A stretch of DNA of 36,435 bases, taken from positions 1 through 36,435 of IMG/VR virus record IMGVR_UViG_3300003873_000029. The stretch is one strand, 5' to 3'. Every line of letters starts with the position of its first letter. Positions within the stretch are counted from its first letter, which is position 1. The notes under the pieces were generated by a model, which saw only the letters and a list, made by a program, of their open reading frames with translations, searched no databases and was not told where the DNA came from. The position numbers and the translations under genes are program-made. Shown here piece by piece: positions 1,998 to 9,991 of this stretch. This stretch comes from a virus.

Positions 1998-2136
1998 GAA
2001 TATAGCCATCCTATTTGTTGCTTGCGCTATCTTTGCCTTTGCTGAGTTTGTTGTGTGGCTGTTCGCGTTTAACTCTTTAATGCTCGCCGTGTACGCCCTT
2101 GAGCTTCTCAAAGCTGCGCATGCCACCAAGCCCTAA
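1981..2136 (+). CDS. Small hydrophobic membrane protein, 51 aa
   Basis: ATG at 1981 lies within the end of the previous gene. The product is hydrophobic over most of its length (IAILFVACAIFAFAEFVVWL and a second hydrophobic stretch), so one or two membrane helices are likely. It is the last gene of the rightward operon, and its 3' 60 bp overlap the end of the leftward holin gene, so the two operons converge with antisense overlap. Function unknown. Confidence 0.5.
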   Translation: MKIYPKNIAILFVACAIFAFAEFVVWLFAFNSLMLAVYALELLKAAHATKP

Positions 2137-2496
2137 GAGCCCGAGTAATATCTGCATGGTGAGGTTTGTGTCAATCACAGGGAATGCTCCTGTGTAGCCG
2201 TACATTATCTTTGCAACGAATCTTGCGAACGGCTCCAGTATCGTTGCATACAACAGGGCGAATCCACACACCCACATGATGAAGGGCCTACCACCAGCAA
2301 CGAACCAGTTTGTACTCTTGGCTTCTGCTTCATTGATCTTGAGCTGGCCTGTAGTTAGAGCGTTATCAAGAGCCTCAAGCTGCAAGTTTATCTTTGCCAT
2401 AGCTGCGGGGTCTTTTATTTTCTCCCCAGTCCAACTTTCACGAACGGAGGTAATTAAACTTCCTATGTCTGAGAGGTTAAAATCAATCAAGCCCAT
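2077..2496 (-). CDS. Holin, Gram-negative three-helix type
   Basis: This 139-residue protein starts MGLIDFNLSDIG and has a hydrophilic first half and a hydrophobic second half (FIMWVCGFALLYATILEP, then a second helix and LLGLLGLGGMRS), ending KLKGVHGEH. That layout matches the 3TM holin family of Gram-negative phages and gene transfer agents. Its role would be timed permeabilisation of the inner membrane to release the endolysin encoded at 3263. ATG at 2496 is chosen because AGGAG lies 8 nt upstream; an in-frame extension to 2556 lies inside the preceding HNH gene and is unlikely to be used. Its first 23 residues resemble the truncated protein at 3078-3263 (15 identical). Confidence 0.8.
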   Translation of the reverse strand: MGLIDFNLSDIGSLITSVRESWTGEKIKDPAAMAKINLQLEALDNALTTGQLKINEAEAKSTNWFVAGGRPFIMWVCGFALLYATILEPFARFVAKIMYGYTGAFPVIDTNLTMQILLGLLGLGGMRSFEKLKGVHGEH

Positions 2497-3136
2497 GCGC
2501 GTACTCCTGTATATTATGAGGTAATTTATTTTCTTTAATAACCCTATTTCTTTCATTCACAGCAATTTCTACACTGTCAAAAGTTTTCCGTAGGTATACC
2601 TTACCTTCGTAATAAACTCTTGCCACAAAAGTTCCTGTTCTTTTACCTTTAATAACACCTATATAGGGTATGATACCGTGACTTTTTATTTTGTTTGCTG
2701 CTTGAATTGAATTGCTAACCCATCTGCAATTATCTGGAGAGTACCCGAGCATATTGTTTATTCTATCGATGGTAAGGTTGTTTGAGTATCCGTTTTCTTT
2801 CGCCCATTTCCTAAATAAAATATAGTCCATCCATTGGTTGCATACAGATATGCCCATTGAACCATAGGCTTCATACCCTGATTGCTTAGTATCAAAACAT
2901 CTGGCCTTCATTTTATTCCAAATGCAGTATAATCTTGAGTGAGAATCACCATGTATTGTATTCGCAATAGACACTGAACAAGGCTGACAATAACCATTCT
3001 TCCTTCTATTCCATATAGAACGCCTAGTCTCCCATTCACGATTACACCGGCTACATTTAACCAGATAGAATCTTGCTTTATGCATACTGTTTGGTGATTG
3101 ATTTCTTGTACCTAAATCCTGTAATACTTCCAACAT
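2483..3136 (-). CDS. HNH homing endonuclease with AP2-type DNA-binding domain
   Basis: The 217-residue protein has two CxxC zinc knuckles (28/31 and 50/53), an HNH-type core at about 122-141 (TIDRINN, then YSPDNCRWVS), and an AP2-like beta-sheet domain at about 158-195 (TFVARVYYEGKVYLRKTF). This is the architecture of free-standing phage homing endonucleases. It would cut a phage lacking the insertion and be copied in by repair. The gene has its own AGGAG site 6 nt before ATG and its own promoter just upstream. Its last 14 bp overlap the holin start. It sits between endolysin and holin and interrupts the lysis cassette. Confidence 0.88.
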   Translation of the reverse strand: MLEVLQDLGTRNQSPNSMHKARFYLVKCSRCNREWETRRSIWNRRKNGYCQPCSVSIANTIHGDSHSRLYCIWNKMKARCFDTKQSGYEAYGSMGISVCNQWMDYILFRKWAKENGYSNNLTIDRINNMLGYSPDNCRWVSNSIQAANKIKSHGIIPYIGVIKGKRTGTFVARVYYEGKVYLRKTFDSVEIAVNERNRVIKENKLPHNIQEYAHGLD

Positions 3137-3263
3137 AGCAAGCTCCTGATGTGATAGGGTTGCCTATTGTATCAAACCAATAGCTTCGAATCAAGGTTAT
3201 CGCTTCTCTTGCACTGGTTAGTATCCCACCAACATCAGATAGGTTGAAATCAAGTAGTCCCAT
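3078..3263 (-). pseudogene. Truncated holin 5' end left by the HNH insertion
   Basis: ATG at 3263 shares its A with the endolysin stop (TAATG), the coupling expected of the native gene after the endolysin. The 61-residue product begins MGLLDFNLSDVGGILTSARE and matches the first 23 residues of the downstream holin at 15 positions, then diverges into sequence that contains the HNH promoter and start. It lacks every membrane helix, so it cannot form a holin. By hand count only 39 of the first 69 bases match the intact copy. It is either the ancestral holin start cut off by the element, or the remains of a duplicate holin. Confidence 0.75.
3166..3194 (-). promoter_or_regulatory. Sigma-70 promoter for the HNH endonuclease gene
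   Basis: On the minus strand, TTGATT (3194-3189) is followed by a 17-base spacer and TACAAT (3171-3166): four of six and five of six matches to the consensus with ideal spacing. It lies 30 nt upstream of the HNH start codon, inside the truncated holin fragment. This would let the endonuclease be expressed independently of late transcription. Confidence 0.55.
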
Positions 3264-3670
3264 TACTGCCACTCCCCAGTACGCATCATTACTGCTAGTT
3301 CATCAGCGCGTTTGCCTACCTGTGTAGCCCATACAGAGTCGAGCATTTCCAGTGCTGCCGCGTTGTACTGGCCGGCTGCAATATGGCCTATGGTGTTTTT
3401 GAATCCTTTGAACCTATGTAGTCCCATATTGAATACCATATCAATCACCACAGCTTGTCTGACACTGTCCAGATAAACGAACCAATCAAACGTAGAGCAG
3501 TCATGCCTAGCATCAGCAATGTCATCAGCTTCGATCTGAGCAATAGCGGCATCACTAATTGGCTTGCTTAGGTTATGCCCTACACCTATCGTTGCTACGC
3601 CCAGAGAATCCTTATACATGACGTGCCTGATCCCTTCATGTCGTGTAATCATTTCCTCAACTTTCGTCAT
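3263..3670 (-). CDS. Endolysin, T4-type lysozyme (GH24)
   Basis: The catalytic triad of the T4 lysozyme family is visible with exact spacing: Glu12 in RHEG, Asp21 in YKDSLG and Thr27 in ATIGVGHN. The 135-residue length fits a single-domain phage lysozyme that cleaves the glycan backbone of peptidoglycan. No signal peptide or signal-anchor helix is seen, so it should depend on the holin. Start 3670 is chosen because AAGGAG lies 7 nt upstream; the in-frame ATG at 3676 is only one base from that site. Confidence 0.93.
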   Translation of the reverse strand: MTKVEEMITRHEGIRHVMYKDSLGVATIGVGHNLSKPISDAAIAQIEADDIADARHDCSTFDWFVYLDSVRQAVVIDMVFNMGLHRFKGFKNTIGHIAAGQYNAAALEMLDSVWATQVGKRADELAVMMRTGEWQ

Positions 3671-3788
3671 CTTCATACTCCTTTTGTAGCTGTACCACTA
3701 TATTTTCTAGCCTATTTACTTCTGATCGTATCGAATGCAGGTCTTGCAACAAGGCTATAAAGGCCATGTCACGCTCGTGTTGGTTCAC
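3657..3788 (-). CDS. Small coiled-coil protein, 43 aa
   Basis: GTG at 3788 overlaps the stop of the upstream gene (GTGA), and the end overlaps the endolysin start. The product is one amphipathic helix (LLQDLHSIRSEVNRLENIVV) with a heptad pattern and an acidic C-terminus. It lies in the lysis cassette but has no transmembrane segment or lipobox, so I cannot call it a spanin. Function unknown. Confidence 0.55.
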   Translation of the reverse strand: MNQHERDMAFIALLQDLHSIRSEVNRLENIVVQLQKEYEDDES

Positions 3789-3910
3789 CGGCTCACAACC
3801 GATACCATAAAGGTGCGGGCATCCTCGATTTTGTGTTCAGCCACCGCCACGGACTCTTCGGCATGGGTGATGGTGTGCTGGAGCAGGTCTTTTAGTGTTT
3901 GGAGGGTCAT
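3785..3910 (-). CDS. Small helical protein, 41 aa
   Basis: ATG at 3910 overlaps the end of the LamG fibre gene, and the TGA overlaps the GTG of the next gene. The sequence (MTLQTLKDLLQHTITHAEES and onward) is predicted helical with mixed charge. Its place between tail fibre and endolysin and the tight overlaps support expression. No family recognised. Confidence 0.55.
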   Translation of the reverse strand: MTLQTLKDLLQHTITHAEESVAVAEHKIEDARTFMVSVVSR

Positions 3911-8289: not shown

Positions 8290-9270
8290 TTAATGTCCTA
8301 TTGCCATCCATCGATATTGTCTATTCGTAGTATCTGCGTTATGTATTGCAAAATAATTTTTGTGATAACTCGTAGGCGGTGCCGATGCAGAATATAGACT
8401 CCCGATCAGGCTCTCAGTTACCTGCGCATTTAAACAAGCATTTGGAAATGCTACAGGGAATGTAACACTTACTGTAGCACCAGTAGCCACGGCTACATCA
8501 CCTCCCCACTGCATAATCAAACCACTCGGCAATTTCTGATAACCGTTTGCACCTAGTGAAGCAGCGAAATCCGCGTCTTTGGTGATGCGCTCGAACGGAG
8601 TCCAAACACCACTAGAATCTGTACTCATGTACATTTGATTTGCTGTGTTGCCCGAACCAAAACTGCGCGCTGTTATCACGCGCCATTGATTGCTTGATAT
8701 GTCAGCAGAGTGCCGCTGCACGTCAATAAACCACCAGCCTACGGGCAAGCCGTTCTGTGCCGCTGCTAGGGAAACATCGTACTTGCCGTCTTCGAGCGCA
8801 TCGCTCCAAGTTTGTAGCGCGTAATCATTCGGCAAATGAGTTGATACACGCTGCAATCCTGCCGGCATTTGCGTGCGGAGAATCGGTGAGCTTGAATCTA
8901 GCAGTCTATTCCAGACTGCGGCGTTTGACGCGGGGTCTGTTGCTGTATTTGCTGTGATCGCTATGTATACGCCGCCGTTTCTGTTAGTCACAGCATCGGC
9001 GGGGTATTCCTGAGCAGAGTCCCACTCGGGCACGCCCATCTGATGGATGTATGCAATCAGTTGCGTCGCAGTGTACGCGACTGCATTAAAATCCTGTTTT
9101 GTCGGATTTCCGTTGACCGAGACAATACCCCATCCGCGCAAAAAACTTGCGCCGATGTTTGCGTCGAGAGTGTCGTTCTGCGTTATGCCGCCAAAAACTG
9201 TCCGCTCATTCGTTTGAGCAGCTGAGCCGAACGCCTTTAGGTCGCCCGTATATCGTAAAATCTTTGCCAT
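8290..9270 (-). CDS. Tail fibre with gp53-like C-terminal domain
   Basis: The 326-residue protein begins MAKILRYTGDLKAFGSAAQ, a segment typical of baseplate-attached fibres, and includes a short CBM-like stretch (WDSAQEYPADAVTNRNGGVY). Its end (GYQKLPSGLIMQWGGDVAV, then VSVTFPVAFPNACLNAQVT) is the gp53-like C-terminal fibre domain that binds host surface glycans. It follows the DUF2612 gene by one base. Together with 5158-6954 and 3907-4596 it gives the phage at least three candidate receptor-binding proteins. Confidence 0.82.
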   Translation of the reverse strand: MAKILRYTGDLKAFGSAAQTNERTVFGGITQNDTLDANIGASFLRGWGIVSVNGNPTKQDFNAVAYTATQLIAYIHQMGVPEWDSAQEYPADAVTNRNGGVYIAITANTATDPASNAAVWNRLLDSSSPILRTQMPAGLQRVSTHLPNDYALQTWSDALEDGKYDVSLAAAQNGLPVGWWFIDVQRHSADISSNQWRVITARSFGSGNTANQMYMSTDSSGVWTPFERITKDADFAASLGANGYQKLPSGLIMQWGGDVAVATGATVSVTFPVAFPNACLNAQVTESLIGSLYSASAPPTSYHKNYFAIHNADTTNRQYRWMAIGH

Positions 9271-9271
9271 A

Positions 9272-9991
9272 TCAAATCACCTTGCTTGCGAATATACCAC
9301 CTGTTGCTTGTGGGTCAAACTTGTCTGAAAAACCTCGAGCGCTGGGGCTGTCAGAAAAACCTAACGTTCCACCCGGCATCGCTTGTATGATACGGTCGAA
9401 TCGTACGCCCTGTGGCCTCGGAAGTAGCCCCAAACGCTGAACAGCTAACAGCAACTCGCTGCTATATGCAGGACTCACATAGAGACTCAACGCCATTGTG
9501 AACGCATCGACTACATACGCCTCTCCCTTGAAAATAGTTGATATCACTTCCTGAATAGATATTTCACTATCAGAAACCATATACGCTGATCCATTGTTAT
9601 ATGCGACCTTAACCTTGATAAAAAAACGATAAGCTGTGTCGTCTAGTTCTAAATCGGTTCGCGTCGGCTCGAACTTATCTTGAAACGGCGCGCTGAAATC
9701 TAATGTATTAAATTTGTCAGCGAATCCCTTGTCGTTCGGATTGTCAGCAAATCCAAACGCAACTTTCGCAATGATGGACGGGAGACGACGAGGCATGCCG
9801 ACGATGCGACCGATAATGTCAAGCCGATCGCCGGATGATGCGTCGATGTCGAACGCGTTACCGATTGACCTAAGTCCATCAATAATGGTTTCCCACATCG
9901 CCGACTTCATTTCGATCTCAGCACTCGACCGCGGCAGCCGCCAATATTGTTTGATCAATAATCCCGAATATGCGTTAGTGATGGCACTCAT
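9272..9991 (-). CDS. DUF2612 baseplate/tail protein
   Basis: The 239-residue protein shows the DUF2612 signature SSGDRLDIIGRIVGMPR at about residues 51-67. It follows baseplate J by a 4-bp overlap, the position of the P2 gpI-like protein that links the baseplate to the fibres. Two copies of a GF(A/S)D-x-P-x(3)-GF(A/S)DKF motif occur at about residues 84-98 and 212-226, an internal duplication that may contact fibres. Confidence 0.8.
   Translation of the reverse strand: MSAITNAYSGLLIKQYWRLPRSSAEIEMKSAMWETIIDGLRSIGNAFDIDASSGDRLDIIGRIVGMPRRLPSIIAKVAFGFADNPNDKGFADKFNTLDFSAPFQDKFEPTRTDLELDDTAYRFFIKVKVAYNNGSAYMVSDSEISIQEVISTIFKGEAYVVDAFTMALSLYVSPAYSSELLLAVQRLGLLPRPQGVRFDRIIQAMPGGTLGFSDSPSARGFSDKFDPQATGGIFASKVI

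Follow-up and report, generated by a model that had tools for sequence, protein, structure and literature searches.

A probable HNH/AP2 homing-endonuclease element in a phage holin coding sequence, with a putative recoded replacement for the severed gene start

An enzyme gene lying inside a coding sequence would normally break its host gene, and homing endonucleases are thought to persist in needed genes by way of introns or inteins, by occupying intergenic sites, or by splitting a gene into working halves. Such enzymes cleave element-free alleles and are then copied into them via repair (PMC2988022). In fungal mitochondria, mobile endonuclease ORFs replace the 3′ ends of genes (atp6 of Allomyces macrogynus; atp6, atp9, cox2, and nad3 of Glomus sp.); there, as at the locus described below, an endonuclease ORF is accompanied by a foreign, divergent replacement end, and the native end left behind is closer to element-free relatives (PMC3630166). 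The seg and mob genes of phage T4 resemble our locus in being free-standing and homing without introns, some of them in coding sequence; however, the insertions covered in the available portions of PMC2988022 lie between genes or split a gene into two polypeptides, and a recoded end is not mentioned in those portions. Phage HNH/AP2 homing endonucleases have also been described (IPA-HNH, PMC10448857; HNN-AP2, PMC2248197), which likewise combine a nuclease with an AP2 domain, are free-standing, and lie in or near core genes, but for which the accessible parts of the two papers describe no replacement gene end.

Here we describe a locus in a 36,435-nucleotide stretch of viral DNA (positions 1 to 36,435 of IMG/VR record IMGVR_UViG_3300003873_000029; hereafter the window) that very probably represents a free-standing HNH/AP2 homing-endonuclease element lodged in a holin coding sequence and carrying a recoded replacement start. 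On the minus strand, from window position 3263 to 2077, a native 69-base holin start is followed by an element of ~765 bp, which consists of an HNH gene and a divergent copy of those 23 codons that opens a complete holin, with the following features:

3263 to 3676, minus strand: endolysin (phage lysozyme), the left homology flank (Pfam Phage_lysozyme, E = 2.4e-10; 73% amino acid identity in the uninterrupted relative)
3195 to 3263, minus strand: stub, native holin codons 1 to 23 (MGLLDFNLSDVGGILTSAREAIT), severed by the insertion (23/23 amino acids and 60/69 nucleotides shared with the uninterrupted holin of L025; blastn 88%)
2431 to 3195, minus strand: inserted element, ~765 bp, absent between the contiguous flanks of contig 3300022697_000044
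3166 to 3194, minus strand: promoter-like TTGATT-17-TACAAT (9/12 positions, plus TG before the second hexamer), starting with the element's first base
3143 to 3147, minus strand: ribosome-binding site AGGAG of the HNH gene (AGGAG-6-ATG), read from the sequence
2483 to 3136, minus strand: HNH endonuclease gene, 217 amino acids (PHROG 374, E = 5.9e-38)
2504 to 2508, minus strand: ribosome-binding site AGGAG of the recoded holin, within the HNH gene, read from the sequence
2428 to 2496, minus strand: the 23 recoded codons that open the holin (MGLIDFNLSDIGSLITSVRESWT), located at the element's 3′ edge, where they overlap the stop codon of the HNH gene (15/23 amino acids and 40/69 nucleotides identical to the native start)
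2077 to 2496, minus strand: complete hybrid holin, 139 amino acids, consisting of the recoded start and the native body (2427-2080) (Pfam GTA_holin_3TM, E = 1.1e-12; PHROG 3427, E = 7.5e-25)

The stop codon of the endolysin and the ATG of the stub overlap as TAATG, and the stub frame stays open until a stop at 3078; the holin-like start that the first-pass annotation had placed directly after the endolysin, coupled in this way, is indeed present at 3263-3195. The complete holin said there to overlap the end of the HNH gene corresponds to the minus-strand ORF at 2496-2077 with its Pfam and PHROG matches, and its ATG sits within the final codons of the HNH gene. The 23 divergent codons of the element continue in frame into the native body, which restores a complete holin coding sequence to the interrupted gene. 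The two starts agree at 15 of 23 amino acids and 39 of 69 nucleotides, the same figures as first reported, and this similarity is far above chance: the pair scores 84, whereas the maximum over 1704 mismatched pairings of upstream and downstream sequences from other HNH loci is 50. The edges of the element are uncertain by ~3 bases because an ACC/ACT codon is shared, and its GC content is 36.8%, as against 46.4% for the window.

An uninterrupted form of the locus is found in IMG/VR contig 3300022697_000044 (L025), which carries a related endolysin, a 33-codon ORF, and a single, intact holin. Residues 1-23 of that holin are those of the stub, the nucleotide differences amounting to nine synonymous and no nonsynonymous codon changes, whereas the start in use in the window matches it at only 15/23 residues and 40/69 nucleotides; from codon 24 onward, the window holin and its relative share 88% amino acid and 73% nucleotide identity. 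With no boundary chosen beforehand, blastn aligns window 3263-3196 with positions 9000-9067 of the contig (88%) and window 2430-2090 with positions 9066-9406 (74%), the latter abutting the left-flank match, and the 765 window bases from 3195 to 2431 are missing between the two flanks. This is a presence/absence polymorphism at a precise site, documented at the DNA level by one close uninterrupted relative, and a search of that contig for an HNH homologue (run without a positive control) found none. The stub is the native copy of the holin start, and the start in use is a different copy. The endolysin-holin junction of this HNH-free relative is as the replacement model had predicted, with one holin whose 5′ DNA matches the stub and whose 3′ DNA matches the downstream half, the two being contiguous. 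These contiguous flanks support the earlier proposal that an element broke the holin and that a replacement start is present, and neither of the patterns that speak against it (two full tandem holins, or an uninterrupted holin identical to the downstream copy with no trace of the upstream fragment) is seen among 43 relatives.

As in the Allomyces and Glomus systems, the displaced copy of a divergent gene-end duplicate is the one closer to the element-free relative (60/69 nucleotides for the stub, 40/69 for the replacement), and the comparison with Allomyces drawn in the first-pass annotation is apt insofar as a gene end is replaced. It does not carry over to the end in question: in the mitochondrial cases the 3′ end is replaced (by a LAGLIDADG element for atp6), whereas here it is the 5′ end, with an HNH/AP2 enzyme and in a phage, so that the window works like the Allomyces/Glomus type but as a variant of it. 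In L025, the 33-codon ORF (L025:4399-4500) resembles a membrane-protein gene and lies between the endolysin and the holin; the window has instead the overlap of the endolysin stop with the stub ATG.

The identity of the HNH endonuclease, as first annotated, is confirmed by its match to PHROG 374. The protein comprises an N-terminal Cys-pair region (zinc-ribbon-like), the HNH region, and a C-terminal AP2-like DNA-binding domain (~residues 157-205, window 2668-2522), and in an alignment it keeps all residues that are invariant across 18 family members; the enzyme gene therefore looks intact. The annotated AP2 domain is upheld by way of relatives: the window protein itself gives no Pfam AP2 match above threshold, but 5 of 14 aligned relatives do, the family profile matches the plant AP2 chains WRI1 (E = 2.6e-4) and TEM1, and the best Foldseek PDB matches of an AlphaFold model (pLDDT 86.7; whole-model search) are AP2 domains, at poor E-values of 0.1 or more. 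The same profile matches the homing endonuclease I-HmuI weakly (E = 0.068). Of the promoter and ribosome-binding site claimed for this gene, the latter is plainly visible; the hexamers of the former are present, but promoter-like sites in the region are no commoner than in shuffles (3 vs. 4.2), and the reading of TTGATT-17-TACAAT as the gene's own promoter is therefore only suggestive.

From the sequence we infer cleavage, homing, immunity, and a functional hybrid holin, in the following manner. The element sits after holin codon 23, within the conserved motif REAIT^GEK, and its enzyme would cut element-free holin alleles at or near this same site. Repair off an element-bearing allele, using homology in the endolysin and stub on one side and in the holin body on the other, would copy in the enzyme gene and the replacement start together; since the element brings a rewritten copy of the part that it severs, holin function should be preserved. 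Around the insertion point the replacement has codons other than the native ones (REAIT having become RESWT) and hence would not be recut, the recoding plausibly removing the endonuclease target, and it would be too dissimilar to the 69-bp stub for repeat recombination to excise the element; both properties should thereby prevent recutting and loss of the element. By carrying a recoded gene end, such an element could occupy a conserved coding site without an intron or intein.

This would be a further phage solution to persistence in a needed gene, in which a recoded replacement is brought for the displaced gene end, and a natural counterpart of engineered recoded-rescue gene drives. Indeed, the home-and-rescue drive HomeR also homes into a needed gene and keeps it working through a recoded stretch of 22 or 27 codons (23 in the window), which there adjoins the cut site; it differs in being engineered, Cas9-based, built in flies, and placed at a 3′ end, and the likeness is one of logic, not of kinship (PMC7968924). 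In the open-access literature searched, we found no report of a recoded gene end arranged in this way in phages or at any 5′ end. The arrangement also indicates the likely target of the enzyme, namely the native codons absent from the replacement, and makes immunity through recoding and retention of the element testable in a small phage system. For tree building it is a caution, as gene ends beside phage HNH genes may be hybrids.

The first-pass annotation had allowed that the recoded start was either brought or kept. The former is favoured here: the stub is native, and the recoded copy is nearer to another holin lineage (18/23 residues shared with the holin of L242, vs. 15/23 with the native relative). 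Searches for a DNA source of the recoded start, by a degenerate N-terminal pattern and by profile, gave only intact holins bearing REAITG, REALTG, or RESITG, none of them a close match in DNA, and the suggestion that it was carried in therefore draws on its divergence. REAITG stands at the insertion point in nearly all holin relatives, the exceptions being REALTG (L241) and RESITG (L234); RESWTG, with its W in the motif, occurs only in the replacement copy of the window (the scan patterns favour a REAITG-type motif but allowed W). A blastn match to the L236 contig starts exactly at the recoded ATG. A nucleotide search found no relatives of the region among sequenced phage genomes, and a rank correlation of N-terminal with body similarity across 35 relatives was uninformative, the rows for L233, L248, and L249 being off register by one residue. 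Within the recoded start, 23/33 nucleotides are alike far from the insertion site and 16/36 near it, whereas at an ATPase locus described below (L043) the corresponding figures are 44/57 and 45/60; recoding that is densest near the site is thus a tendency in the window, absent in L043, and makes no general rule.

A local duplication of the holin 5′ end, either preceding or accompanying the arrival of the HNH gene between the two copies, with the used copy diverging in place and never having been carried, would account for the lack of a detected DNA donor and for the recognisable homology of the two starts. It is nonetheless improbable, in that the abandoned stub would have been conserved (23/23 amino acids) while the used copy diverged (15/23) far more than the rest of the gene (88%); the replacement is moreover nearer to the L242 lineage, and the same layout occurs with HNH genes in unrelated host genes.

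We give very little credence to insertion of the HNH gene in the first of two tandem holin genes, the alternative raised in the first-pass annotation. Two successive holin-like starts are what such an event would leave, but single-holin relatives and the contiguous flanks in 3300022697_000044 contradict it. A holin profile scan returned 43 loci (including contigs already found otherwise, and near-duplicates), none of which has an upstream duplicate of the holin start or a clear second, tandem holin downstream. One holin is present at the locus in L025 and in L049, the latter being, with L047, one of two further intact holins of the window type found by DNA pattern.

It is no more credible that the HNH gene lies in a self-splicing intron, although phage HNH genes often lie within group I introns, the junction is exact at the codon level, and joining 3195 to 2427 would give back a native-like holin. 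Apart from the HNH ORF the element has some 110 bases, too short a stretch to hold a group I core; an intron would not be expected to bring a further holin start, in frame and equipped with a ribosome-binding site; and no Rfam family matches the 2000-3800 region at E ≤ 1, on which ground, as regards the intron core RNA, a group I intron was rejected. That the HNH protein acts in packaging or regulation and not in homing, a role suggested by literature on HNH proteins near terminase genes that participate in packaging, is highly unlikely given an HNH gene in one phage's holin that was not found in the relative's contig, and an HNH-plus-AP2 architecture that PMC10448857 describes as a phage homing-endonuclease class.

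To return to the reading of a homing element with a recoded start, we surveyed ~176 HNH loci from viral contigs, annotated phages, and species genomes for a gene end beside an HNH gene with a diverged second copy across the HNH gene; the sample consists of the best-scoring relatives of one family and therefore gives no frequency for phages at large. Under the final positional criterion, 143 loci were scorable for the 5′ form and 137 for the 3′ form, the numbers being descriptive and not a test because the criteria were made stricter once initial results had been seen. Four loci stand out in the 5′ form (the window, 84; L182, 69; L080, 51; L089, 46; the next scoring 32), and 0.12% of 1704 mismatched pairings score at least 45; in the 3′ form, the highest score among 1630 mismatched pairings is 38, which L043 (170) and L107 (42) both surpass. 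There are thus five further candidates, three at 5′ ends (helicase, DNA methylase, SSB) and two mirror-image cases at 3′ ends (ATPase, methylase):

L182, 2370 to 3161: 5′ form in a DEAD-like helicase, with stub MLRKHQADFAKTIGRIMNGDPIDTIY and replacement MLRKHQQQFKNVIDGIMAGSKVNTIY immediately before TPGSGKS
L080, 2432 to 2998: 5′ form in a DNA methylase, whose start stub reads in frame into the HNH ORF (TTG start)
L089, 2041 to 2211: 5′ form in an SSB gene, with a small minus-strand ORF (56 amino acids) separating the HNH gene from the SSB stub, within the same candidate element
L043, 2138 to 3608: 3′ form in an ATPase ORF, in which the replacement 3′ end, differing mostly by synonymous changes, lies upstream of the HNH gene (3025-3468) and the displaced native end (3483-3608) lies downstream
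L107, 71 to 1170: 3′ form in a DNA methylase whose 3′ end is probably a replacement; next come the HNH gene and then the displaced end (YWKASCERLEQAQRQQTLF)

The helicase locus L182 comes from a Deltaproteobacteria genome bin with phage-like genes nearby, and its insertion lies immediately upstream of the Walker A motif; in its relatives L225 and L226, the start is single and uninterrupted and shares marginally more nucleotides with the stub (45 and 48 of 78) than with the replacement (40 and 44). In L143, a relative of L043, the ORF is single and uninterrupted, and it resembles the displaced end slightly more (91/111 nucleotides) than the replacement (84/111). The 3′ form is thus seen in phages in L043 and, probably, L107, and among phages L043 comes nearest to the atp6 element of Allomyces. 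For L080, L089, and L107, the basis is layout and protein similarity only; since stub and HNH ORF form an in-frame fusion in L080, the enzyme there may use the start signals of the host gene. On balance, we lean towards a recurrent class of phage HNH elements with a recoded 5′ or 3′ gene end, natural "home-and-rescue" elements that could settle in conserved codons of needed genes, with no intron, intein, or splitting, because a cut-resistant replacement end is brought along.

Other survey matches, including L111, L066, L081, L093, L038, and L102, were not counted, as they looked to be of low complexity, off-frame, or poorly placed, and L094 was left out because its HNH ORF was mis-called. In Escherichia phage U1G (L056:564-3983), an HNH gene of the same family has an ORF annotated as DNA polymerase I on either side; a recoded gene end was not found at this locus. 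L174, whose score of 47 is above the mismatched 3′ maximum, was likewise not counted, as the repeat is non-coding: at L174:2170-3060 the HNH gene sits in a non-coding region with an imperfect direct repeat of ~65 bases on either side, possibly a non-coding counterpart of stub and copy.
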